From: a virus
Virus record (IMG/VR): IMGVR_UViG_3300034118_001588
Span: 1-25,369 of that record
Length of the DNA stretch: 25,369 bases
Strand: one strand, 5' to 3'
Below the pieces are notes generated by a model, which ran no database searches, was not told where the DNA came from, and worked only from the letters and a program-made list of their open reading frames with translations. Positions 284 through 25,013 of this stretch are shown here, piece by piece. Made by a program: the position numbers and the translations under genes. Every line of letters begins with the position of its first letter. The stretch's first letter is position 1.

Positions 284-3007
284 CTAGCTCAGGCGATAGG
301 TCACAAACGTGTTGGCAGCCGTGCGTCGTGAAGCAAAGCGACCAGAGGTGCCAGTAACAACAGAGCCAGAGCCGACGATGGTGTGAGCAGTGCCAGCAAG
401 TACGCGTACCAGGCTAAGACCTGTGTTGATGACGCTCCACTCAAATGTGAAGTTGTCATAGGTGCCATTAAAACCAGCTTGAGTGTCGGTGCCAGTGGGC
501 AGCGTCATGTCGGTTGCTAGTGCCGACGTGCTAGTGATAATGCCGGTTTTGAGGTTGGCAACAGTTAATGTTGCAGTGGCGTTGACAGCAGCGGGGGCAG
601 GTTGGTCGTAAGCTTTAACGCCGTCGTTGGTAATACGAAAACGCTCCGTCGGGCTGCTCGCTCCGTCGGCGGTAGTGAAGAACACTAAACGACCCGGCAT
701 ATCATTAGCGCCGGGGGTGCCGTCTACTTCGGCTTTTATTGATGCAGCAATTGTATTAAGGTCTATGCCATCATCTGCAACAAAAAGAATATTAGAAAGT
801 ACATCATTATTCTGCGCTATCGTCCTAGACGCAATAGAACCTCTTGTCTGGCCTAAGACTAAGTTTGAACCTGCTGTAGTTGCGTTTGTGCGAATAATTG
901 ACTGCCAGGCTACTCCTGCATCTCCGACTAGCTGAACATGAGGAGTTGATCCGCCTGCAGCAAGCGCACTAGACGTGCCAACTAAGAGCCTGCCGGAGCT
1001 GTCGATGCGGGCGCGTTCTGAACCGCCGCTCTTGAAAGCAATATTGCCGTTAGCATCCGACCCCGTGTACTCAAACTCTGCTGTCTTGGTGGAATCGGTA
1101 AGATTTACGCGAAGAATAGGGATATTTGTTCCACCTGCTCTCTGAAGTCGGAATATCTCGCCATCAGCGCTTTGTTGCACATGCAATAGCGACTGAGGCC
1201 CAGTAGTGCCAATCCCTACGTTGCCTGCCGATGTAATTCTCATCCGCTCCGTCGGACTTGATGCACCATCAAGAGTGGTAGAAAAGACCAGCCTGCCCGG
1301 CATGTCGTTAGCGCCGGGGGTGCCGTCTACTTCACAAGTAATCAGCCCAGCCTCGACAAATTCGGAGCCATCATTTCCTTGATATGAAACGCCGCCCAAT
1401 ATGTCATTAGCGGCAACAACAACATTCGTACCAAGGGCTCCACGGCTCCTGGCTAAAAATAAATTTGGATAGGGATTAGCGCTTGAGGCACTACCATTAG
1501 CAATGAGCGCAGCAGAGCTAAGAGAAGTAGTTGTACTTTCGACCTGTAACTGAGCGCTAATTGTGGAATTTCTAAAGTTTGTACGCGCATTAGACGTGCC
1601 AACTAAGAGCCTGCCGGAGCTGTCGATGCGGGCGTGCTCACTAGGGCCATTTCTAAACACATGAGCGCCCAGAGCAGAGCTAAAGTTCTGATTTTTGTAA
1701 ATTAAATCAAACGTAGTCGTATCTTTTATGATTGAACCAGTCCGGGCATTTGCGCTATTTGTACCGCCTATCGTAATACCAACAAATTCGCCAGAAGCCG
1801 AGTCGTTTCCGTTGCTTACGTGCAACGCATGGCCAGGGCTCGTAGTGCCAATCCCTACGTTGCCTCCTGAGGGGTTTAATGCGATTGGCCGAAACGCGGT
1901 CCCTGCTGTAATTGATTGAATCCAGGCGTAATTATTTGTTGTTTCAAAACCAAAATTCAAACGATTGGCAGTGTTTGTGCTGCCGCGAATTGCAAACTGA
2001 CCTCCGGCGTTTTGTTCAAACGTTGCGTCGCCTTGGACATGTAAAAGATTTACAGGACTCGTAGTGCCAATCCCTACTTTCCCTGTGTTATCAATAACGA
2101 CTCGCGTGTCCGTCCCGGTCTGTAGATACAGGGCACGGGCAGTGCCACCAAGACTTTGAGAGCGTACATAACCATATCTAGCCGTGGCGCCTGTAGATGC
2201 TGTTGTAGAATTACCTCCTATATAAACACCTGGTTGAGATGTACCGGGACCCCTGAATAAGGCGTAATTCTCTTCAGTGTCTGTCGTACTTGCTCCGACA
2301 ACTTCAATTGGAGTTGCAGGGCTACTAGTCCCCAGACCTAAGCGGCCATCAGAAGTAAACCGAGCACGCTCGGAACCATCAACACGAATGTCAATATATG
2401 ATGCGCTAGCAACATTGCCTTCATCAGCTCGAAGGGAAAGCGCTCCGTTGTTGTTAAGTATTTCGGCGTAAGAGTTGTCTGTTGTGTCGCGCAACCTTGC
2501 GGTAGGCAAAGCAGAAGTTATTTCAAAATTAGAGCTTGGCGAACCTCCAATGCCTACTTGTCCAGTTGCATTAATAAACAACCTCCCAGTGCCACTAGTC
2601 GAGATGGCTACTTGATCTGCACCGGGGGAGTATAGTCCAGAATTTGGGTCAGAAACAAAACTAATCGATGGATTTGCTGCCGTACCTGACGCAAATACAC
2701 CCGATGTAATGGTGTGAGTACCACCGCTGATGTTAGTGAAGTTACCGCTAGTAAAGTTTGCAGTAGTGCCCGTAACAGTAACCCCTGTTAATGAAGCAAA
2801 AGTTCCACTGGTAAACTGAGCGGTTGTTCCAGTAACGGTAACACCTGAAATTGTTTGACCCCGTACGGTATTACCAGAGATAGTTCCGGTTACTGTTACG
2901 TTTCCTGTAAAGGTAGGATTCTGAACTAAACCAGAAATTGCAACGCTTTTATCAACACCATCGCTAGTAAAGGTAATAGTGTCACACTTTAAAATTCCGT
3001 AAGCCAT
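284..3007 (-). CDS. Large repetitive tail-fibre-like protein, 907 aa
   Basis: Probable receptor-binding or side fibre. Residues 1 to about 110 carry short Thr/Gly/Val repeats such as SGVTVTGTTAQFTSG, also found in the neighbouring 596-aa protein. The middle is built of the fibre signature NVGIGTTSP-x-LLHV, alternating with ERARIDSSGRLLVGTS and DGTPGANDMPGRLVF blocks. In other phage fibres these blocks form beta-rich trimeric shafts. The C-terminal ~100 residues (from ATLTVANLKTG to TFVTYRLS) lack the blocks and probably form the tip domain. I see no Peptidase_S74 chaperone motif at the end. Start is ATG with a weak purine-rich leader; the gene ends in tandem TAG TAG. It lies 36 bases after the 596-aa fibre gene, so they are probably co-transcribed. 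The block pattern supports a fibre role; the receptor is unknown. Confidence 0.8.
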   Translation of the reverse strand: MAYGILKCDTITFTSDGVDKSVAISGLVQNPTFTGNVTVTGTISGNTVRGQTISGVTVTGTTAQFTSGTFASLTGVTVTGTTANFTSGNFTNISGGTHTITSGVFASGTAANPSISFVSDPNSGLYSPGADQVAISTSGTGRLFINATGQVGIGGSPSSNFEITSALPTARLRDTTDNSYAEILNNNGALSLRADEGNVASASYIDIRVDGSERARFTSDGRLGLGTSSPATPIEVVGASTTDTEENYALFRGPGTSQPGVYIGGNSTTASTGATARYGYVRSQSLGGTARALYLQTGTDTRVVIDNTGKVGIGTTSPVNLLHVQGDATFEQNAGGQFAIRGSTNTANRLNFGFETTNNYAWIQSITAGTAFRPIALNPSGGNVGIGTTSPGHALHVSNGNDSASGEFVGITIGGTNSANARTGSIIKDTTTFDLIYKNQNFSSALGAHVFRNGPSEHARIDSSGRLLVGTSNARTNFRNSTISAQLQVESTTTSLSSAALIANGSASSANPYPNLFLARSRGALGTNVVVAANDILGGVSYQGNDGSEFVEAGLITCEVDGTPGANDMPGRLVFSTTLDGASSPTERMRITSAGNVGIGTTGPQSLLHVQQSADGEIFRLQRAGGTNIPILRVNLTDSTKTAEFEYTGSDANGNIAFKSGGSERARIDSSGRLLVGTSSALAAGGSTPHVQLVGDAGVAWQSIIRTNATTAGSNLVLGQTRGSIASRTIAQNNDVLSNILFVADDGIDLNTIAASIKAEVDGTPGANDMPGRLVFFTTADGASSPTERFRITNDGVKAYDQPAPAAVNATATLTVANLKTGIITSTSALATDMTLPTGTDTQAGFNGTYDNFTFEWSVINTGLSLVRVLAGTAHTIVGSGSVVTGTSGRFASRRTAANTFVTYRLS
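642..730. repeat. Intragenic repeat A, copy 1 (partner 1245-1333)
   Basis: This 89-base segment of the 907-aa fibre gene matches 1245-1333 in length and partly in sequence; the last 26 bases (ttagcgccgg...tctacttc) are identical. It encodes the block DGTPGANDMPGRLVF followed by DGASSPTER. The near-identity suggests recent duplication or gene conversion inside the fibre. Confidence 0.7.
970..1013. repeat. 44-bp perfect direct repeat, copy 1 (partner 1591-1634)
   Basis: These 44 bases are identical to 1591-1634. They encode the ARIDSSGRLLVGTS block of the fibre on the minus strand. A perfect 44-base match within one gene points to recent duplication or ongoing homogenisation. Confidence 0.85.
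1245..1333. repeat. Intragenic repeat A, copy 2 (partner 642-730)
   Basis: Second copy of the fibre block described at 642-730, encoding DGTPGANDMPGRLVF plus DGASSPTERM. The divergence is concentrated in its first half. Confidence 0.7.
1591..1634. repeat. 44-bp perfect direct repeat, copy 2 (partner 970-1013)
   Basis: Second copy of the 44-base identical block in the 907-aa fibre gene. The flanking sequences differ, so only the ARIDSSGRLLVGTS block is duplicated. Confidence 0.85.
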
Positions 3008-3043
3008 TTTGTTGTCTCTTTTTGTTTATTTTAGCCGAGAAAA

Positions 3044-4834
3044 TTACGGAAGAATGATTAGTGGACCTTGGATTACAAACCCACTTGCGCTACCGGAAAC
3101 AACGCCAGAACACACAATGGCAGGCGTTGCGCCAGATGGCGTGGTTATCCTAAGCGTGCTCCCAGTGATGTTTGTAAACGTACCGGTTGCACCAGTAACT
3201 GTTACACCAGAAACAGTTGTAAATGTTGCAGTAACACCTGTGGTTGTTGTTCCTGTTAATGAAATAAATGTCCCAGTTGTTGCGGAGGTTGTGACTGCTT
3301 GAACCGTAGTACCTGTAATTGTTGTGCCACTAAGGGTACCGGTAATCTGAACACCAGAAGCAAAAAAACCAGAACCAAGGACATTAAGGTCACCTGATAC
3401 TGTCGTGTTAGTAAAAGCAAGGTTAATTGCCGCAAGTGTTTGGAAAATACCTGTCGTTGCATTGACTGTTGTTCCTGTGTACGTCGTACCACTAAGATTG
3501 GTAAAGACGCCAGACGTACCTTGGATCGTATTACCAGTGATTGTGGCCCCAGAAACACTGGTGGTGAAAACGCCTGCGATACCGGTCAGATTCGTGAAAC
3601 TGCCAGTGTCTCCTGTGACAAGCAGACCGGAAACATGTGTGGTAAATGTACCGGTTGCTCCCGTCAGGGAAGTAAAAGTACCAATGTTACCGGTAACGGT
3701 TGCGCCTGAAACTTGAGTGGTAAATGTCCCGGACGTACTCGTCAGGTTTGTAAAAACACCTGAGGCACCGGTAATTGTGGTGGCCGATAACTGACTAGTA
3801 AAGACACCGGATACACCAGAAACAATCGTTGCGGCAACTGTGTTACCAGTGACTGTTGCACCAGAAACTCTGGTGAATGTACCGGATACACCAGTCAGTG
3901 TTGTGTATTGTCCGGTGTCACCAGTAATGACTGCACCCGAAAGGAACTGTGTAAAAACACCAGAGATACCAGAGACGTTACCAAAGGCACCCGTATTGCC
4001 TGTTACGGTTGCACCAGAAACCCTGGTTGTGAAAGTACCGGAAACACCTGTGAGATTAGCAGTTTGTACCGTATTTCCGGTAATGGTTGCGCCAGATAAC
4101 TGTGTTGTGAAAACACCCGATACACCAGTGACACTTGTGAATTGTGCCGTAGATCCAGTTACTGTTGTTCCAGATAATGTTCCTGTGACCTGAACACCGT
4201 TACTAAATTGAGCAGTGCCAGTAACCGTCAGTCCGCTAGCAACGGAAAGATTACCGTTTACATCCAGTACAGGCGTACCAAGGACCTGGAACGTACCTGT
4301 GGTTGCTGCGACGGTAGTACCAGTGATTGTGACACCGCTCAGATTTGTGAATACACCAGATGGCGAGCGGACAATACCACCTGTAATCGTGGCACCTGAT
4401 AGGTTTTGATAAACGCCAGACGTAAAAGCACTTGTCGTACCTGTTGCGGTCGTAACCGTGGCAGTGACTGCGTTGACATTGGTGCCTTGTACGTTGGTTC
4501 CGGTAATGGTCAGACCACTGACGGTACCACTAATAACCGCATTATTTTGAACTACAATGCCACTGAATGTACTAGATCCAGAAGCTGTAATTGAATTGAA
4601 TGAGCTAGTGCCAGAAACCGTTAGGTTCCCTGAGATTGTGACGTTACCACTGAAGGTTGCGCCACTGGCAGGTGCGTAATACTCATTAAGATATTCTTTG
4701 AATTGAGTAAAGGTAATTTTTTTGTTGCGTAAAGTGGGGTCAACCTCGAAGACATGGACGAGCGTTAGCAGGTCCTGTTCATCGATCTCGCCCCCACTGA
4801 TGGCAGGGAATTCACTGATCCTACGGTTTGACAC
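3044..4834 (-). CDS. Tandem-repeat tail-fibre-like protein, 596 aa
   Basis: Probable virion fibre. The first ~60 residues are a non-repetitive head (RISEFPAISGGEIDEQDLL, then NKKITFTQFKEYL). In cyanophage fibre proteins such a head is likely to attach the fibre to the virion (family knowledge plus inference). Nearly all the rest is a tandem array of about 26 residues with the consensus VSGATVTGNTGxFxNLTG and SGTFTT, giving a DNA period near 78 bases. It is almost purely Thr/Ser/Gly/Val, as in beta-helical shafts. The C-terminus (SGSASGFVIQGPLIILP) is short, with no obvious globular tip. The start is GTG at 4832-4834, chosen because the head begins MSNRRISEF. It lies just upstream of the 907-aa fibre, which shares the repeat style; the two may assemble end to end. 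Confidence 0.75.
   Translation of the reverse strand: MSNRRISEFPAISGGEIDEQDLLTLVHVFEVDPTLRNKKITFTQFKEYLNEYYAPASGATFSGNVTISGNLTVSGTSSFNSITASGSSTFSGIVVQNNAVISGTVSGLTITGTNVQGTNVNAVTATVTTATGTTSAFTSGVYQNLSGATITGGIVRSPSGVFTNLSGVTITGTTVAATTGTFQVLGTPVLDVNGNLSVASGLTVTGTAQFSNGVQVTGTLSGTTVTGSTAQFTSVTGVSGVFTTQLSGATITGNTVQTANLTGVSGTFTTRVSGATVTGNTGAFGNVSGISGVFTQFLSGAVITGDTGQYTTLTGVSGTFTRVSGATVTGNTVAATIVSGVSGVFTSQLSATTITGASGVFTNLTSTSGTFTTQVSGATVTGNIGTFTSLTGATGTFTTHVSGLLVTGDTGSFTNLTGIAGVFTTSVSGATITGNTIQGTSGVFTNLSGTTYTGTTVNATTGIFQTLAAINLAFTNTTVSGDLNVLGSGFFASGVQITGTLSGTTITGTTVQAVTTSATTGTFISLTGTTTTGVTATFTTVSGVTVTGATGTFTNITGSTLRITTPSGATPAIVCSGVVSGSASGFVIQGPLIILP
3480..4420. repeat. Tandem coding repeats of about 78 bp in the fibre gene
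   Basis: Within the 596-aa fibre gene the unit VSGATVTGNT...SGVFTT recurs about ten times with a period near 26 residues. Units are diverged at DNA level but keep the same Gly/Thr positions. The boundaries given are approximate. Such arrays commonly change copy number by slippage or recombination. Confidence 0.6.
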
Positions 4835-9009: not shown

Positions 9010-9669
9010 CTAGCCGTTAAATATCAGATCGACGGACTCATCGGCAAAGTCCTGCCATCGGTCGTCATCAATACGAAAACTGTTGGCAAACTCAGACAGG
9101 ATGTAAGGATTGATACGTTCCTCCAGAGCACGGATTGCGCGTACTTCGTGGGGAGCAGCACTGTAATTACGGAAGGCGGTCAACAAGACTTCTGTTGATG
9201 CCCAAGGGCTGGTGTCTACGTCACGAAGGAAAAGACCCATCTCTTCTCTCCTGCGTTCCAGGAGACCACCAACAACCTTATGGTTTTGGTCAAAGATCCA
9301 GCGGCTCATTTCCGTGGTGGCACTAGCAAAATCCTCTGCTTCCACATGATCAATGATGTGGCTGTACAAGAAGGACTCCCAACCAACGGAATGAATGAAC
9401 GAGACTAGAGCCTGGCGCATGTTGTCGTCAAGACCAAGGTTCTGCCGCTGGAGCTGGGACTCAATGACGCTGACCTCATGGAAGAGGTACGCAAGAGCTT
9501 TCTCCTGGCTGCAACGCTGACCTTGCTTGACGGGGGAACCATCGGGATAGAACTGGGTTCCAAACCCGATGGTGTATGGCTCTGCGCCAGTGTGCGGATC
9601 TGCGTATGCCTTTTCGTTAAACCCTTCGTATTTACGAATTAGGTTAATAGCACGCGAAAAATCCGACAT
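9010..9669 (-). CDS. T4-type lysozyme (GH24 endolysin), 219 aa
   Basis: Hydrolyses the beta-1,4 bond between N-acetylmuramic acid and N-acetylglucosamine in peptidoglycan, probably for lysis. The N-terminal active-site region is clear: LIRKYEGFNEKAYADP then PYTIGFGT, giving the T4-lysozyme Glu-Asp-Thr triad as Glu15, Asp24 and Thr33. NMRQALVSFIHSVGW and the RRREEMGLFL stretch are also typical of GH24. About 65 extra C-terminal residues of unknown role follow the ~150-residue domain. I see no signal peptide, so export would need a holin or similar. ATG 9669 is chosen because it immediately precedes the domain; an in-frame TTG at 9693 would add eight residues. There is no Shine-Dalgarno sequence at normal spacing, and a hairpin directly abuts the ATG. 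Confidence 0.9.
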   Translation of the reverse strand: MSDFSRAINLIRKYEGFNEKAYADPHTGAEPYTIGFGTQFYPDGSPVKQGQRCSQEKALAYLFHEVSVIESQLQRQNLGLDDNMRQALVSFIHSVGWESFLYSHIIDHVEAEDFASATTEMSRWIFDQNHKVVGGLLERRREEMGLFLRDVDTSPWASTEVLLTAFRNYSAAPHEVRAIRALEERINPYILSEFANSFRIDDDRWQDFADESVDLIFNG

Positions 9670-9691
9670 GGAGATAACTATTGTTATCCCC
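9670..9691 (-). promoter_or_regulatory. Hairpin abutting the lysozyme start codon
   Basis: On the minus strand GGGGATAAC, loop AATA, then GTTATCTCC ends directly at the ATG. It pairs over 9 bp with one G-U wobble. It would hide the initiation region of the lysozyme message and could delay its translation, or act as an operator at DNA level. Confidence 0.5.
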
Positions 9692-9705
9692 AATATACAT
9701 AATTT

Positions 9706-16169: not shown

Positions 16170-16874
16170 TTAACCATATGGATTCATGTTAAGCAACATT
16201 TGAAATGGATTCATGGCGAGAGGTTGTGCAGGCGTCAACAAAAGCTCCCCTACCAACTGTTCTTTAAACAATTCACCAAGAGATTTATCTGTTGGTTTAC
16301 TGCCCTCCATTGCCGATAAGAAGCCTTGGAGGAAACCGGCAGAAGATGTTTCCTGCCCAGTAGCTGCTCCTTGTGCTTGTTCGCCGGAGAGAGGTTGCCT
16401 TCCTTGTTGATAGGTTTTCTGTAATTCAGAATAACTTTTAACGGGTTGACCGTAATAACTCTTGCCTTCTTTCGTAGGAAGTGACGCCCACTCAGGTGCA
16501 AGAGCAGCAACAAACTCAGGTGTTAAACCTTGTTTCTGTAAATAAGAAAGGCCGCCAAGACCCATGGTACGTTGGCGTGCAAGATCAAGTGCAGCAATGT
16601 CTTGCTCAACCGGACCAAAAGAGCCTAAGCCAAGTTTCTTCTGTTGTTGTTGCCAGGTTGGTGTAAGGAATTGATAAGCACCGGCAGCGGTACTTCTTCC
16701 TTTCATTACTTTGTCTGGGTGTTGCTTGAGATCTGGCGCAAGCGATCCACCAAACATGACTCGATATGAGTCTTGACCACCACGTTCTGTTCCTTCCGCA
16801 AAACGCAACATGCGCAAAAGACCTTGCGCTTCCGGCGTTTGTCTAAACTTTTCGTAAAAGGAACGATCTGCCAT
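16170..16874 (-). CDS. Lambda R-like lytic transglycosylase (GH104), 234 aa
   Basis: Resembles lambda endolysin R (GH104), which cleaves peptidoglycan glycan strands. Residues about 10-165 align in order: LLRMLRFAEGT with Glu27 as the catalytic Glu, a YRVMFGG strand, HPDKV, STAAGAYQFLTPTWQQQQKK, LGLGSFGPVEQDIAALDLA and APEWASLPT with YYGQ. A Gln-rich linker follows, then a ~55-residue C-terminal module (FLQGFL ... KEQLVGELL ... PAQ ... NPFQMLL ... NPY). The same module ends the M23-like protein at 18433. Being in the late structural block with a special tail, it is more likely a virion-associated cell-wall enzyme than the lysis endolysin (inference). ATG 16874 has an AGGAG 9 bases upstream. 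Confidence 0.85.
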   Translation of the reverse strand: MADRSFYEKFRQTPEAQGLLRMLRFAEGTERGGQDSYRVMFGGSLAPDLKQHPDKVMKGRSTAAGAYQFLTPTWQQQQKKLGLGSFGPVEQDIAALDLARQRTMGLGGLSYLQKQGLTPEFVAALAPEWASLPTKEGKSYYGQPVKSYSELQKTYQQGRQPLSGEQAQGAATGQETSSAGFLQGFLSAMEGSKPTDKSLGELFKEQLVGELLLTPAQPLAMNPFQMLLNMNPYG

Positions 16875-17080: not shown

Positions 17081-17932
17081 TTATTTCTTAACTAACTTAA
17101 GAAGCTCTTCAAACTTAGCAGCATCCATCACGTTAGGCTGACCAAATACAGATGTTGTAGCTGTACCAAGGGGAGCTGCGCCTAAACCTGACAATTCAGA
17201 TGTTGGTTTAATCGTGGAGTAAGGAGGTGGCGTCTGTGCTCCAGGGGCAAGGTTAGAGGTTACACCAAAGCCTGTGGAGTAACCAGTGCCTGTCGGTAAA
17301 CCAGGAACTTGTGTCGGGAAGCCTTGCGGTGTTGGCACAAGTTGTTCGGTAATACCAAAGCCTTGTCCTGCACGCGCCATGTTACCGGCAAGAGTGCCTT
17401 GAATTGCTTCGTAGCCAGACTGTCCGGCTTTGACTTTGGCAGCAAGGGTGGGATTGGCTTTTGCCCACATCTGCATGCCGATATCTTCTGCCGACTGAAC
17501 CTGTTCAGGCGTAGCACCGGGGGCAACAGCTTTTAGACGTGCCGCTTCGTAACGCTGAAGCTCAGGATCTTGAGCAGTAAGCTGAGCAACACGAGATGCC
17601 TCGGATTGGTATGCACGTTCAGCCGCAGCTTGTTGGCCAGGAAAACCTGCACCTGAGCGAAAACTTTCTGCTGCAGCCCCTGCACGAAGCTCTTCTTCTT
17701 TGTAACCTGTGCCGTAATCACGCAAGCTTCCGGTAGGTTTAGTAGATGTAGCTCTACCGGAAGTACCGCGACGGCCTCCCATGCCCCCACCACCTGGATT
17801 GTAAGGAGCTGCAGGCTGATTAAAAAATTTACCGGCAGCATTTACTGCTCCCGGAATGTTAGGGAGTATACTCAATCCGCTAAGTGCCCATGGAGCAATG
17901 CGCCCAATATTAGAAACAACAGGTCCAATCAT
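17081..17932 (-). CDS. Gly/Ala/Pro-rich probable virion protein, 283 aa
   Basis: The family is not recognised. The N-terminal ~37 residues are hydrophobic and glycine-bearing (MIGPVVSNIGRIAPWALSGL), able to insert in or touch a membrane. A Gly/Arg-rich linker (GGGGMGGRRGTSGRA) and an Ala-rich helical centre (AAAESFRSGAGFPGQQAAAE) follow, then a Pro/Gly/Thr-rich region and a short C-terminal helix (KFEELLKLVKK). Such composition is common in internal or ejected virion proteins (inference). ATG 17932 overlaps the TGA of the upstream gene (TGATG), which decides this start over an in-frame TTG at 17941. It lies between the connector-like gene and the transglycosylase. Confidence 0.6.
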   Translation of the reverse strand: MIGPVVSNIGRIAPWALSGLSILPNIPGAVNAAGKFFNQPAAPYNPGGGGMGGRRGTSGRATSTKPTGSLRDYGTGYKEEELRAGAAAESFRSGAGFPGQQAAAERAYQSEASRVAQLTAQDPELQRYEAARLKAVAPGATPEQVQSAEDIGMQMWAKANPTLAAKVKAGQSGYEAIQGTLAGNMARAGQGFGITEQLVPTPQGFPTQVPGLPTGTGYSTGFGVTSNLAPGAQTPPPYSTIKPTSELSGLGAAPLGTATTSVFGQPNVMDAAKFEELLKLVKK

Positions 17933-18393
17933 CACCGCCAAACCTCATGTAAATAAATGCGTGATCCCACAGCCGTATCGGCAGGGCCAGGTAAAGCCTG
18001 GATGAATTCAGCACCAGAGCGTTCGTAACGATATCTGGCCTGGAACGGATCCTTATAGTTGGGAACGTAAAGGATACCGGCTAAACGGTTGGTTTCGTAG
18101 AGATAAATCTCATCCCAAACCTTAAGCGCCTCTTTGGCATTACTGGATCTGATCGTACGATCAACGTCACCAACAATGTTTTCGATGCGCGTAGAGGGTG
18201 AAGTAGCAACTTCAGTCCTCTTTTCAGCAGTGTCGCAACGTCCAATTTGGATAGCAATTTTGTCATAGAAGTATGAATCCGGAACGGTGTTCATAGTTTC
18301 TTCAAGTCGGGCATAGTCACCCGCCGGCACGGAAACCGTGAAGTAGCCTAGGTGATACCTGACTCTACTCTTGTCAAAATCGCTGAGCTGCAC
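17932..18393 (-). CDS. Probable head-tail connector or structural protein, 153 aa
   Basis: A compact soluble α/β protein beginning MQLSDFDKSRVRYHLGYFTV, with a helical middle (ARLEETMNTVPDSYFYDKIA), a second half with SNAKEALKVWDEIYLYETNR, and a GSRIYLHEVWR end. Its size, and its place after the capsid genes in late-gene order, suggest a head-completion or neck protein. The start resembles phage proteins annotated that way (recalled only). The GTG start at 18391-18393 has a GGAA element upstream. Its TGA overlaps the next ATG (TGATG). Confidence 0.5.
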   Translation of the reverse strand: MQLSDFDKSRVRYHLGYFTVSVPAGDYARLEETMNTVPDSYFYDKIAIQIGRCDTAEKRTEVATSPSTRIENIVGDVDRTIRSSNAKEALKVWDEIYLYETNRLAGILYVPNYKDPFQARYRYERSGAEFIQALPGPADTAVGSRIYLHEVWR

Positions 18394-18432: not shown

Positions 18433-19098
18433 TTAAACGGCGTATGGATTAGGAAGGCTGGCTAGTAACTCCATGGGATTGATTGTTTGAGCGGGTTGTA
18501 ATAACTGCTGGACAAGTTGACGTTTCATTTTGGTCGCACCGCTTTCTTTCGGTTCACCTGCAAAACCAGTGCCAAGTAAGTAACCCATTAAAAACTCTTT
18601 AGGATCTGTGCCAGCACCGGAGGGATCTTGTACCTTTCCACCCGTAAGATCAGAAGCTTCTCCTAGCGTCTTCATGTGGCCGTAGCCAAGCTCATATTTT
18701 CCATCTCCTGTTGTCCAGGTGGCTAAATTACCGTAACCACCTTCATTGGGACGAGGTTTAAATTTAACATCTCCTTCTACAAAAATCTCAGTCCCTTCTG
18801 CACCAGCATAATCTCTACCCCTGTGGTATGTGCTAGCACCAGCAATGCCTGTATTTCTGGGGCCAAAACCAGAAGTCATTGTAAGGCCGGCTGCTGGATT
18901 TAGTTGCAACCCACCTTTTTCATCGGCAATATACTTAGGGACTCGATTTGGTCCGACCCTAACACCTAAAAATTTACTGCGATGGATGCCAGGGTCTTCG
19001 TATTGATTGGTCTGAAGGTTTAATACATAGCCATGCAAATGTGGACCGGAAGAAATTCCAGTAGATCCAAGCTGCCCTAGTCGCGTGATCTTTGCCAT
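18433..19098 (-). CDS. Circularly permuted M23-type peptidase, 221 aa
   Basis: Probable zinc peptidase that cuts peptidoglycan cross-bridges. All five active-site residues of the LytM/M23 family are present but in rotated order. The family's last motif, GPHLH (His20, His22), is at the N-terminus in GQLGSTGISSGPHLHGYV. The first motif HxxxD follows (His92, Asp96 in TYHRGRDYAG), preceded by the usual SGFGPRN. The middle motif comes last (His141 in ELGYGHMKTLG). An in-frame TAG nine bases upstream of the ATG rules out a longer canonical N-terminus. Residues 168-221 are a module shared with the transglycosylase at 16170 (FLMGYL ... KRQLVQQLL.PAQ ... NPMELL ... NPY). A terminator lies just upstream. 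The fold is inferred from motifs. Confidence 0.75.
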   Translation of the reverse strand: MAKITRLGQLGSTGISSGPHLHGYVLNLQTNQYEDPGIHRSKFLGVRVGPNRVPKYIADEKGGLQLNPAAGLTMTSGFGPRNTGIAGASTYHRGRDYAGAEGTEIFVEGDVKFKPRPNEGGYGNLATWTTGDGKYELGYGHMKTLGEASDLTGGKVQDPSGAGTDPKEFLMGYLLGTGFAGEPKESGATKMKRQLVQQLLQPAQTINPMELLASLPNPYAV

Positions 19099-19111
19099 AT
19101 CTACATTCTAA

Positions 19112-19138
19112 AAGTAAAAACCCCTGGTTTCCCAGGGG
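19112..19138 (-). terminator. Rho-independent terminator before the M23-like gene
   Basis: On the minus strand CCCCTGG-GAAA-CCAGGGG is followed by TTTTTACTTTT. The 7-bp GC-rich stem with a GNRA-type loop is strong. It follows the 142-aa gene and lies 13 bases before the M23-like ATG, so it should lower expression of the genes beyond it. Confidence 0.9.
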
Positions 19139-19158
19139 CATAGTTTGGAGATGAGTAA

Positions 19159-19587
19159 TCAAACCCTGATCAGGTCCGCAGCAATCACCGCATCCCAGTC
19201 AACTCGCTTGATTTGTTTTAACTGTTCGAGATTGTTGAACCTTTCACCCGATAAGGACATCTGAAGATCTTTAATCTCTCGGGCTGTTTTCAATCCAATA
19301 CCCTTAATATGATCAGCGATCATTTGAGCGGTAGCTGAATTGATATTTAAACGGTTGTCCGGGGGGAAAGTACGTGGCTCTTCCTGAGCAGCTTTATCTT
19401 TTACTTGAAGCGTCTTTACCGTTTTGGTAGCAGCCTCATCAGGTGTAAGTTCAGTTCTGTAAGCGGTATAAAGGCGACCGTCCTGATCTTCGACCATGTA
19501 CCAGTCGCCGTTATCCCATTCGCTTACAATCTTGACTCTTGCACCTGTTTTTTTGTGCTGATAAAGCATTGCTGCAGTGGTTGACAT
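19159..19587 (-). CDS. Helix-hairpin-helix (ComEA-like) protein with SH3-like N-terminus, 142 aa
   Basis: The C-terminal ~70 residues match ComEA-type tandem helix-hairpin-helix DNA-binding motifs: RLNINSATAQMIADHIKGIG, then LKTAREIKDLQ and FNNLEQLKQIKRV. The N-terminal ~55 residues (GARVKIVSEWDNGDWYMVED) look like a small SH3/KOW-like beta barrel. A basic linker joins them. HhH motifs bind double-stranded DNA without sequence specificity. Located among head genes it may contact packaged or entering DNA, or be a connector part (inference). A perfect 10-bp hairpin overlaps its ATG and a terminator follows its stop. Confidence 0.7.
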   Translation of the reverse strand: MSTTAAMLYQHKKTGARVKIVSEWDNGDWYMVEDQDGRLYTAYRTELTPDEAATKTVKTLQVKDKAAQEEPRTFPPDNRLNINSATAQMIADHIKGIGLKTAREIKDLQMSLSGERFNNLEQLKQIKRVDWDAVIAADLIRV

Positions 19588-20462: not shown

Positions 20463-21626
20463 TCAAACAGTGCCGTCATCTTGCACAAAGCTGTAAGCAG
20501 TGGTCACGAAGTCCTTGTTGAGGATCTCGAAACCAGCGTACAGTTGCCAAATCAGGATGATGAAACGGCTGAAGTCATCGTTGTTGTTGATGAGCACTTG
20601 AGCGTTCGGGCCGCCGATACCAACACCAACAGACTGAGGACCGAAGAAGAAGCCTTGAGCAGCTTCCCTGGAGGCATAGGTGGAACCACCATCGAAGGAG
20701 GCACTCACACTCTTGGTCGGGAAGTTGGTCGACTCGAAGAACTTCACGCCTTCAAACTGAACGCCAGTAGGCATTACAGGTTCACCAGCCAGGAAGTAGC
20801 CTTGGCCGGCCTGAGGACCCATGTAGAAGCTGGCGTTGTTAGGCATCATGGGGTTACCCATGTACATGCCTTGGCCAGGGTTACCGGAGTAACGCGCAAT
20901 CTCACGGAAGTCAGGATCACGACGCAGGTGCATCATGAAGGTAGGATCGCAGATGCAACGATACAGACCATCAGCGAAGGTCGGAACGTTACGCTTGCGC
21001 AAATCCTTAACAATGGTCAGCAGGTCAGTACGCACCTGGAACTGCTGAACTTCATTACCGTATTCGGTGGTGGTGTAGCTGACACGACCAGAGGAATCTT
21101 TGATCTTGTTACCAGCGAAGTAGTAACCACCTTGGGTAGTAGAAGCAGCGCCATTGGCTTCTGCTTTCGACAGTTCGTCAATAAAGACGCGGTCACGCCA
21201 ACGGCGATAGTCGTCAAGCAGCGTCAGGCTACCGATCGACTGGTGGAACATATTCAGGTTGCCCGAATCCAGAAGCAGGCGCTGGGCCGTGATCAGGGTT
21301 TCACGAGCAATCTTGAAGGTCGAAGGCTGAGTCGGATCACCCGGGTCGGCAGGACCAGTGTATTCCTTAAGCACCACCAGGACTTTCTCCTTGGTGATGT
21401 TACGGCTGTTAGCGGTACCGATGGTTTGGTCGGCAATACGCTCACGGCTGTCCTTAGTACCAGGGGTACCCCAGAACTTATAGCGATCAAGCTGAACAGT
21501 TTGACCAGGCTGACGAGTGAAGTCGTGAACAACTACAGGCTCGACTGCCATTTCTGCGATATACGCAGGGTGGGGACGGTAAAGTTCCGCACCCAAAATC
21601 TTTGGAAAGTCGTTATCAATGAACAC
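20463..21626 (-). CDS. Major capsid protein, 387 aa
   Basis: Main shell protein of the head. It follows the scaffold-like gene, has a typical length, and opens FIDNDFPKILGAELYRPHPA. A long N-terminal beta/arm region is followed by GQTVQLDRYKFWG, a helical IARETLITAQRLLLDSGNL, and a large domain with YRCICDPTFMMHLRRDPDFR. The pattern is reminiscent of the HK97-fold N4 gp56-type family (recalled, not searched). The GTG start at 21624-21626 is supported by GGAGG ten bases upstream, the strongest class of ribosome binding site here. Codon use is more GC-rich than in neighbours, as expected for high expression. The long antisense frame over it has no support as a gene. Confidence 0.8.
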   Translation of the reverse strand: MFIDNDFPKILGAELYRPHPAYIAEMAVEPVVVHDFTRQPGQTVQLDRYKFWGTPGTKDSRERIADQTIGTANSRNITKEKVLVVLKEYTGPADPGDPTQPSTFKIARETLITAQRLLLDSGNLNMFHQSIGSLTLLDDYRRWRDRVFIDELSKAEANGAASTTQGGYYFAGNKIKDSSGRVSYTTTEYGNEVQQFQVRTDLLTIVKDLRKRNVPTFADGLYRCICDPTFMMHLRRDPDFREIARYSGNPGQGMYMGNPMMPNNASFYMGPQAGQGYFLAGEPVMPTGVQFEGVKFFESTNFPTKSVSASFDGGSTYASREAAQGFFFGPQSVGVGIGGPNAQVLINNNDDFSRFIILIWQLYAGFEILNKDFVTTAYSFVQDDGTV

Positions 21627-22276: not shown

Positions 22277-23266
22277 TCACTCCATCACAAACAGTTTGTT
22301 TGCAACAACTTGAGGCTGAGCTTGGTTCAGAAGACGCCAGGCATTCTCCGGATTCACATCCATTTGTTGCTTGAAGCTGCCCCAGAAGTTCTCAGGTTGC
22401 TGAGGAGCGGAAGCAGCAGGGGGTGCAGGGAATTGGCCCATATAGTTCTGGATCGATTCCGTAGGATAACCACGGGTTTCCAGTTGGGACTCATCCTCAT
22501 ACACAGGGTACGGACCTTCAGGACCAAAGAACTTCAGCGTGTAATCGCTGAGTACATCAGGATTGGTCAGGATTTCGTTGTAAGCCAGGTTCTCTTGGTG
22601 CTCGGCAACAGAGAAATCGGCATAACGATGAAGGACCTCTTGTGCTTTGCTGCCCCAGGCAACAGCACTGTCAAGCATGGCTTCCAGTTGGAGGCCATAG
22701 TTATTGAGAACAGCAGGTGCGTCCCAACCGTAAGCATTAATTACGTTTCTGCTTTCCGGGCTTAGTTGCAGGTAATCCGCGATCGCGTTTTGCACCTCGC
22801 TCGTCGGGTTGAGGCCGTCGAGTGTTGAGTAAATTGTCGAGGAAATTTGGGAAGAGCTGGGCGAGTAAGCCTGGTTGGGTGACCAGGTCTGCGGAGCCGA
22901 TTGTTGCGTAGCTGGGTTGCTGTACTGCTGACCGTAGTTGGCCGGTGCGTACTGGGTCGGAATCTGTGATGGTTGACCCTGGAACGGGGATTGAACTGGA
23001 CTGCTCAGCAGATTCACCACCTTGTTGAACGCCGATTCCCACGGATTGCTGTTCGCTTCCGCTTGGTATTGGGGGGCGTACTGAGTAGGGGCTGATTGGT
23101 AATTGGGGGCCGCCTGAGGCACCGCTTGGGGGTAGCTGGTACCCACCTGATACGCCACTGGAGCTTGGGGTACTGGAGCCTGGGCTGGTACCACGTAGCT
23201 GCTTGGAGCCACCGCCACTGGTGCTTGGCTCGTCTGTGGGATCGATTGGACGGTAGCGTCCTGCAT
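22277..23266 (-). CDS. Probable capsid scaffolding protein, 329 aa
   Basis: Placed between portal and capsid genes, where tailed phages keep the scaffold. Residues 1 to about 145 are Pro/Gln/Ala/Ser/Tyr-rich and disordered (YVVPAQAPVPQAPVAYQ, YQSAPTQYAPQYQ). Residues about 150-260 are helical (SEVQNAIADYLQLSPESRNV, then WGSKAQEVLHRYADFSVAEH), and the C-terminus (NPENAWRLLNQAQPQVVANK) could contact the shell. A helical scaffold with a disordered arm fits. The start is firmly set by AAGGAG seven bases before ATG 23266. The first 530 bases overlap the portal gene in another frame on the same strand. Confidence 0.65.
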   Translation of the reverse strand: MQDATVQSIPQTSQAPVAVAPSSYVVPAQAPVPQAPVAYQVGTSYPQAVPQAAPNYQSAPTQYAPQYQAEANSNPWESAFNKVVNLLSSPVQSPFQGQPSQIPTQYAPANYGQQYSNPATQQSAPQTWSPNQAYSPSSSQISSTIYSTLDGLNPTSEVQNAIADYLQLSPESRNVINAYGWDAPAVLNNYGLQLEAMLDSAVAWGSKAQEVLHRYADFSVAEHQENLAYNEILTNPDVLSDYTLKFFGPEGPYPVYEDESQLETRGYPTESIQNYMGQFPAPPAASAPQQPENFWGSFKQQMDVNPENAWRLLNQAQPQVVANKLFVME

Positions 23267-25013
23267 AACTCATCTCCTTTTGTAGAGCTTCTAATGTTCG
23301 ATACAGATATGGAGTTAAATCCAATCTTGGATCCGCAGCCATCGGAAGATCCGGTGCTTGCGGGTGGGGAGTCTGCATCATTCCCCCCACTAAGCGAGCG
23401 AATTGAGAGTATGCACCCTGTAATTCGTTCACCATCCTGAAAGGGAACCCAGATAACATCTCGGCCCTTTCCTCATCCGTCTTAGACGGGAAGAGGTATT
23501 TCAGTGCTTCAATGCTATCAACACCTAACTCCTGGAGGTTTCGTACCACGATGGAGTTGTTGAGGATGTCTTGGGTGGAGTCCTCATAAACAGGACCCAT
23601 CCAACGCCACAAAATAGTTAAATCACCGTCCGGAATAAGACCAATAACCTTGGGTGGAATCTGTTGGGTCTCCACACAAGCCATCATAAGTTGTTTGAGT
23701 TGGTCATTGTATTGCTTCATTGCTTCTTCATATGCCATCTCTTCTTCTGGGGAAGCACCGTCAGGTAGATCCACGGGCTTTTCTAATCCTGCTGCCATCG
23801 CAAGCGTCGTCTTGAAGAGTTGTTCTTCCTGGTAAATAATCAACTCAAGACAACGACAGATGCCATGTGTGTAAATAGCATTTGCTTTCTTCTTGGATGT
23901 AGCAGCTACACGACCAAACAATGATTTGTACTCAGTTGCAGTCACGCCTGCAGAGATAGACAGTTCATCAACACCACCAAGTGCTGTACGGATCTCTTCT
24001 CGATACTGACGCGCAAATGCGTTTTGGTCACCTGTAATTGCATCGGGGACAATGTAACCAACACGGTCGTTTGGTTCCAGGTTTGCGATGACTCTTGGTA
24101 CACGGATCTGACCATCAGCACCACGGCTGACAGGATCTGCTTTGAACGTAGAGCGACTCAAGGCAGCAGGACTCGTGAAGCCAGAGTTTGCTGCAATAGA
24201 AGGTCGCTGAACGCTCATGTCCCCACCTGCTTCCATCAGGTCTGTCTTGGGACGTGACGAAAGCAGTGTTGGGTTACCAAAGAAAGTGATGTTCTTGCGC
24301 ATGGTGCGCATCAATTCATCATGCGTGCAAATGTGATTAGCGACTGCATCAAACTCACCAGAGCCTTCATTTGAAAAGCCTTGAGTGTTGTTGATGATCT
24401 CAACGCAAGGAATAAAGCCAAGACTATTTTTAAGCGTTTTGGTATTACCTGTTAACGCATAGGTTGGCATGTCAAAATTCAGCTCCGAATCGGAGTGCGT
24501 CTCTTCAATCTCTTTTGGTTTAATTGACAATCGGATATAACGCTTAGCACCGGGATTGTATGTGCTTTGCGATCCAGTGATATTGACTGTGTTGATTTGA
24601 TCGCCAAAGCCGTTGCCACGGCGCACCTTGTAGCTGTAGATGATTACGACTTCGTCAAGCTCACCGTCAACGTTGTAATAGGCACGATATTCATGTTCAC
24701 GAAAGTAATAAAGTCTATAGCTCTGCTTGGTAGGACGAATGTAAAAAAGTCCTTTACCATCACACAAAAAGTATTCCCAGATGGAATCCAAACGGGTATC
24801 CATCTTGTTGTACTTGAGTACCCTGTCGATAAAGTCTTTGCGCTGAGCGCCAAAGTTATCTTGCCCTGGAAAGAACTCAACTCCTTGGCGAATACCAAAG
24901 AGTTTCATCTGTGCAATATGGGACGCAACAATACCCGTATCTACAACAATGTCACTGTTTTTATCCAGGTAAGCATTGATGATTTCGTGGAGTCGGGCTT
25001 TAGCGTCAGCCAT
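22737..25013 (-). CDS. Portal protein, 758 aa, with C-terminus overprinting scaffold
   Basis: Forms the ring at the head vertex through which DNA is packaged. The first ~580 residues have portal-like features: a helical N-terminus (ARLHEIINAYLDKNSDIVVD), a wing-like beta region (YYFREHEYRAYYNVDGELDE), and a long helical stem/crown region (FARQYREEIRTALGGVDELS, VAATSKKKANAIYTHGICRC). Its place before the scaffold and capsid genes supports this. Residues ~583-758 are Ser/Gly/Pro/Gln-rich and disordered, ending in a basic tail (ERGAKRDRGLPATKPGKQKR); they lie in the region that also encodes the scaffold N-terminus. Portals of related size are usually nearer 550-600 aa, so the tail is an unusual extension. 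ATG 25013 has AAGG six bases upstream. Confidence 0.75.
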   Translation of the reverse strand: MADAKARLHEIINAYLDKNSDIVVDTGIVASHIAQMKLFGIRQGVEFFPGQDNFGAQRKDFIDRVLKYNKMDTRLDSIWEYFLCDGKGLFYIRPTKQSYRLYYFREHEYRAYYNVDGELDEVVIIYSYKVRRGNGFGDQINTVNITGSQSTYNPGAKRYIRLSIKPKEIEETHSDSELNFDMPTYALTGNTKTLKNSLGFIPCVEIINNTQGFSNEGSGEFDAVANHICTHDELMRTMRKNITFFGNPTLLSSRPKTDLMEAGGDMSVQRPSIAANSGFTSPAALSRSTFKADPVSRGADGQIRVPRVIANLEPNDRVGYIVPDAITGDQNAFARQYREEIRTALGGVDELSISAGVTATEYKSLFGRVAATSKKKANAIYTHGICRCLELIIYQEEQLFKTTLAMAAGLEKPVDLPDGASPEEEMAYEEAMKQYNDQLKQLMMACVETQQIPPKVIGLIPDGDLTILWRWMGPVYEDSTQDILNNSIVVRNLQELGVDSIEALKYLFPSKTDEERAEMLSGFPFRMVNELQGAYSQFARLVGGMMQTPHPQAPDLPMAADPRLDLTPYLYRTLEALQKEMSYAGRYRPIDPTDEPSTSGGGSKQLRGTSPGSSTPSSSGVSGGYQLPPSGASGGPQLPISPYSVRPPIPSGSEQQSVGIGVQQGGESAEQSSSIPVPGSTITDSDPVRTGQLRSAVQQPSYATIGSADLVTQPGLLAQLFPNFLDNLLNTRRPQPDERGAKRDRGLPATKPGKQKRN
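23274..23279 (-). promoter_or_regulatory. Strong Shine-Dalgarno inside the portal gene
   Basis: AAGGAG lies seven bases upstream of the scaffold ATG at 23266. It is good evidence that translation begins here, within the portal reading frame. Confidence 0.8.

Follow-up and report, generated by a model that had tools for sequence, protein, structure and literature searches.

Can a gene that carries the active-site motifs of an M23 peptidase in the wrong order still encode an enzyme, or is it simply broken? The question is raised by a gene in the stretch of viral DNA analysed here, the 25,369 nucleotides of IMG/VR record IMGVR_UViG_3300034118_001588, which we call the window. The gene occupies 18433..19098 (ATG at 19098, TAA ending at 18433) and encodes 221 amino acids. 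Like every other window feature given below, it is on the minus strand. Collinear M23 enzymes have the order HxxxD, YxH, HxH. Here the order along the chain is HxH, HxxxD, YGH, so the protein must be called a permuted variant of M23 and not a canonical member. A sequence-only reading had proposed a circularly permuted M23 domain with a whole catalytic set, and its five residues are all where it put them: H20 (codon 19041-19039), H22 (19035-19033), H92 (18825-18823), D96 (18813-18811) and H141 (18678-18676). It was also right about an in-frame TAG upstream, which lies four codons before the ATG (19110..19108).

The chain divides into four parts. Residues 1-45 (18964..19098) correspond to the C-terminal part of a canonical M23 domain (GQxGSTG..GPHLH ... 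DP), as placed by Pfam positions 67-87 and the un-rotated hhalign register. Residues 46-72 (18883..18963) are a linker from the canonical C-terminus to the canonical N-terminus. It is delimited by the alignment and an AlphaFold model, which has strands within it at 46-48, 56-58 and 64-66. Residues 73-150 (18649..18882) are the canonical N-terminal and central part with TSxFGxR, HxxxD and YGH, as judged from Pfam positions 2-55 and from invariance in 90 ORFs. Residues 151-221 (18436..18648) are a C-terminal tail of short helices and low predicted order, delimited by a tail profile search and low pLDDT. By sequence alignment, the new ends fall in the loop that canonically links the YxH strand to the GQxIG strand. 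A terminator-like hairpin of 8 pairs with a T-rich tail is found just upstream of the gene (19120..19139). Since it is directly 5' of the gene, expression may come from a separate promoter or from read-through; it must be noted that the number of terminator-like sites in the region is not above that in shuffles.

The rotation can be scored directly. The Pfam profile PF01551 matches the native protein in two stretches that are in the wrong order, with 27.9 bits, just below the curated cut-off of 28.7. The best native stretch pairs residues 91-145 with profile positions 2-55, and the N-terminal 45 residues alone match positions 67-87. When the protein is rejoined in canonical order there is a single stretch of 35.3 bits. 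One relative (L037) is above the cut-off in its native order (39.1 bits) and rises to 47.1 bits when un-rotated. Every rotation was also scored against a custom profile of 116 canonical M23 domains taken from cellular genomes. In native order the best single-domain score of the window peptidase is 47.3 bits. The best cut raises it to 70.4, and 37 rotations come within 2 bits of that value; a canonical M23 control scores best unrotated. Chance motif order is ruled out by shuffling the N-terminal 45 residues (n=500), which gives un-rotated scores with a mean of 47.5, a standard deviation of 0.64 and a maximum of 53.7 against about 70 bits for the real protein. The corresponding protein of cyanophage S-EIV1 gains little from un-rotation with this profile (33.0 to 35.0 bits), and its HxH is HxD. 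The profile-profile comparison (hhalign) gives 143.5 over 107 columns un-rotated versus 91.1 over 68 columns native, and all five active-site residues are in register in the former. Against phage Gp16 in the PDB (9m7n) the E-value improves from 2.3e-4 to 3.9e-9 upon un-rotation, in one continuous alignment that runs through GPHLH.

The sequence-only reading had suggested looking in phage proteins for HxH upstream of HxxxD, and such proteins exist. In the 997-aa S-TIM5 protein AEZ65701.1, GAHLH precedes HTGVD, which is the same rotated order. Acinetobacter phages (for example QZI85290.1) and Moraxella phages (for example AKI27967.1) also have this order, in the middle of the chain of a tape measure or tail protein. 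The other phage M23 proteins examined have the canonical order. So do 138 of the 139 cellular M23 ORFs sampled; in 25 sampled cellular sequences with HVH or a variant the order was assigned by reading the sequences. The one permuted ORF (L411) is from a cyanobacterial chromosome, and the permuted M23 of L411 and L431 is a 208-aa protein of that one chromosome. At L431:9458-10084 it stands alone, with a repeated gene family and what may be a GIY-YIG-like gene close by; the region is possibly a phage-derived island. A cellular origin was considered and rejected, given that cellular sample and a scan of GTDB genomes with the window peptidase that found no relative.

What does the virus do with this protein? 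The structural genes of the window match Synechococcus phage S-EIV1, and no other isolate has a portal protein related to that of the window; the record is a freshwater cyanobacterial virus related to that cyanophage. The portal-like virion structural protein (22737..25013; phrog_20475 and phrog_64) is 73% identical to that of S-EIV1, and a major head protein (20463..21626; phrog_1357) belongs to the same structural block. The peptidase gene is encoded among these virion structural genes. At the other end of the window, 284-4834 encodes two long fibre-like proteins (907 and 596 aa) with Ser/Thr/Gly repeats such as TVTGTTA and SGVFT. The block has a second wall hydrolase, a lysozyme-like gene at 16170..16874 (phrog_90/phrog_17230), that ends in the same kind of tail (about 16176-16361). 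A profile of the C-terminal 75 residues of the peptidase, run against 5,228 ORFs, matches outside the family almost only this second hydrolase gene, at its C-terminus, with modest E-values of 1e-5 to 1e-2. The second gene of S-EIV1 is a Phage_lysozyme2 protein whose C-terminal tail looks similar by eye.

We infer from the position in the structural block, the tail shared with the lysozyme-like gene and the separate lysozyme at 9010..9693 that the peptidase is a virion-associated wall hydrolase for DNA entry. One can imagine that it is no part of the virion but the endolysin for lysis, set free when the infection ends, and some of its PHROG matches are annotated as endolysins. However, the lysozyme at 9010..9693 is a PF00959 phage lysozyme and the likely endolysin, the peptidase gene sits in the head and tail block, its tail recurs on another hydrolase of that block, and it has relatives inside tape-measure proteins. 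We regard a lysis role as unlikely.

Further evidence on the tail comes from an exchange of what lies in front of it. In L037 a divergent permuted M23 domain replaces the stretch 18712..19115. The DNA of L037 and that of the window are 99.6% identical on the side that ends at 19116, and on the side that starts at 18711 most of the DNA is 91.7-96.6% identical. The conserved flanks of this cassette are a helix-hairpin-helix protein upstream (19159..19587) and a phrog_29158 protein downstream (17932..18393). In L067 the flanks are 84.7% and 86.4% identical, and between them is another domain, which we call type E. Between L171 and S-EIV1 the identity is 89-90% on either side of the slot, and L171 has a domain with M15-like motifs where S-EIV1 has the permuted M23. 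The catalytic domain of the second hydrolase also varies among relatives (lysozyme-like, SLT, Phage_lysozyme2 and others). As far as sequence comparison goes, the constant element is the tail common to the two wall hydrolases, and the enzymes that precede it can be exchanged. The shared tail probably docks these enzymes on or in the virion.

Type E (L067:9668-10405, about 90 related loci) has the same slot and the same tail as the permuted peptidase. Its invariant residues H24, D26, H88, D100 and H158 are in the same relative order as those of the permuted M23. The domain has no match in Pfam, PHROG or the PDB, and by fold it matches proteins of the Synechococcus phages S-WAM2 and S-T4. Type E may be a very divergent permuted M23, but the M23 profile comparison is weak (82%, over part of the domain), so we do not claim it as one. 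The domain with M15-like motifs, type F (L169:3427-4113 and L171:5233-5919), has the motifs HPVGMAIDV...HVHLAL, which we take to resemble those of M15 peptidases; searches of Pfam, PHROG, NCBIfam and the PDB gave no match that confirms M15. It too has the same slot and the same tail. This bears on the suggestion that the permutation frees the C-terminus for an extra module. That suggestion is not supported, since the same tail is on a non-M23 domain (L169) and the permuted M23 also occurs without the tail. Besides, lysostaphin and other canonical M23 enzymes have C-terminal modules although their domain is not permuted.

The next issue is whether the rotated segments close on each other within one chain. 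In an AlphaFold2 model made with 37 relatives, block-mean pLDDT values are 84-97 for residues 1-150 and do not exceed 61 in the tail; residues ~20-150 form one confident beta-rich domain. The best Foldseek matches among the BFVD viral predictions are A0A510E7V3, the S-TIM5 virion protein H6WFX6 (equated with AEZ65701.1 by protein length) and a tape measure protein. No M23 structure was among the Foldseek matches from the PDB, but the alignments listed are mostly full-length, a mode that would penalise a permuted query, and we read this outcome as uninformative and not as a negative. A domain-swapped dimer, in which the N-terminal HxH hairpin completes the site of a partner and the active enzyme is an intertwined oligomer, would give the same sequence signals and would explain the conservation equally well. 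Against it, the monomer is predicted confidently as a single domain, a linker of about 27 residues seems to be of sufficient length for the chain to close on itself, and the same order is found within long tape-measure chains. We think such a dimer is quite unlikely.

Conservation bears on whether the protein is a working enzyme or a relic. An IMG/VR scan found about 67 loci of close relatives, most of them full-length and 57-100% identical. Other IMG/VR scans found at least 117 loci with an alignment as query and 45 of the S-EIV1 type; when the alignment was broadened, at least 218 were found. The conservation set consists of 90 distinct complete viral ORFs in which the permuted domain is entire. 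None of the 90 lacks H20, H92, D96 or H141; at position 22, 60 of them have His and 30 have Asp. The dN/dS ratio is 0.04-0.06 across codons 1-150. The invariant catalytic residues and this ratio mean that the permuted arrangement is maintained and not decaying.

It might be argued that the domain is a non-catalytic structural or regulatory one, as in EnvC or NlpD, because Asp replaces the second His of HxH in a third of the relatives. Asp can itself act as a zinc ligand, however, and neither the remaining ligands nor the two catalytic histidines vary. Degenerate LytM domains lose zinc ligands and catalytic histidines. We consider the non-catalytic reading very unlikely. A sequencing frameshift, which the sequence-only reading had named among the things that would overturn it, is excluded, and so is an assembly fusion, since independent full-length homologues are numerous, with roughly 67 loci and 90 distinct permuted ORFs. 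There is hardly any chance that the gene is an inactive fusion of two M23 remnants joined by deletion, or a decayed tandem. Circular permutations usually arise when a gene is duplicated and both ends are then trimmed, so such an intermediate may have existed, but every catalytic residue is kept in the 90 ORFs, dN/dS is 0.04-0.06, and the rotated order must be old, as unrelated phages share it.

The permuted M23 is a real variant that has been overlooked, predicted to be an enzyme, and not a broken gene. The proposal of a permuted domain with a whole catalytic set is supported by the rotation test and its shuffle null, the profile-profile comparison, the 90-ORF invariance and the confident AlphaFold domain. 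Judged from these comparisons, what the relatives of S-EIV1 conserve is probably a working M23-type endopeptidase.

We argue that the explanation that best fits the whole is a predicted permuted zinc metalloendopeptidase of the M23/LytM type, virion-associated, with an exchangeable N-terminal cassette on a constant tail, and we hold this to be quite likely. In this scheme the HxH segment comes first and, after the linker, is followed by the segment with HxxxD and the second catalytic His. Both segments would fold jointly into one M23 beta-sheet domain. By analogy with the LytM site, H92, D96 and H22 (Asp22 in a third of the relatives) would bind one zinc, and H20 and H141 would be the catalytic histidines. 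The peptidase would cleave peptidoglycan at its peptide bonds, as ordinary M23 enzymes do. Gene position, the shared tail and the separate lysozyme suggest that it would act when DNA enters from the virion, with the constant tail probably mounting the exchangeable catalytic cassette on or in the particle.

How many times did the permutation arise? In a tree of the un-rotated domains the permuted rows are on one side of a single branch with support of 98/87. This is consistent with a single origin of the permuted sequences, within the limits set by 141 columns, few canonical sequences and the long branches of S-TIM5 and L411. We lean towards a phage-specific M23 branch that goes back to one ancient permutation. 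From there it would have reached tail and virion proteins of phages that are not related to each other, namely the S-EIV1-like phages, S-TIM5 and phages of Acinetobacter and Moraxella. Among the S-EIV1-like phages it would be one of several interchangeable wall-cutting cassettes on a constant C-terminal virion-docking tail.

It is worth comparing the window peptidase with what is known. With the M23 family (PF01551; LytM, lysostaphin, ShyA, phage Gp16 9m7n) it shares the five active-site residues, the local motifs and, after un-rotation, sequence homology over the whole domain. It differs in the rotated order of the segments, in its new termini and in a native Pfam score just under the cut-off. 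The S-EIV1 'peptidase M23 family' protein AHV82231.1 has the same gene position, permuted order and kind of tail, but is only 27% identical and has HxD instead of HxH. Its record is annotated as plain M23 and does not mention a permutation. QZI85290.1, AKI27967.1 and AEZ65701.1 share the permuted order, but there the domain is within long virion proteins, whereas the window peptidase is short and stands alone with its tail. Permuted NlpC/P60 hydrolases (YaeF/LRAT-like) are a natural circular permutation in which the active site is kept (PMC6403190). They are also a peptidoglycan-hydrolase fold, but these cysteine peptidases are unrelated to M23 and serve only as a precedent. Searches of open-access literature, which take in neither preprints nor most subscription papers, turned up no previous account of a permuted M23, and such an absence is weak evidence.

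Natural circular permutation of catalytic folds is uncommon, and M23 is among the best-studied families of wall hydrolases. Judging from this finding, the M23 site seems to tolerate a change in the position of the termini, a point of interest for the engineering of lysins. The permutation also explains why automatic annotation splits or underscores such proteins. Finally, the cassette on a tail is a testable idea of how phages could retune the wall-cutting tool of their particle while its mounting is left unchanged.
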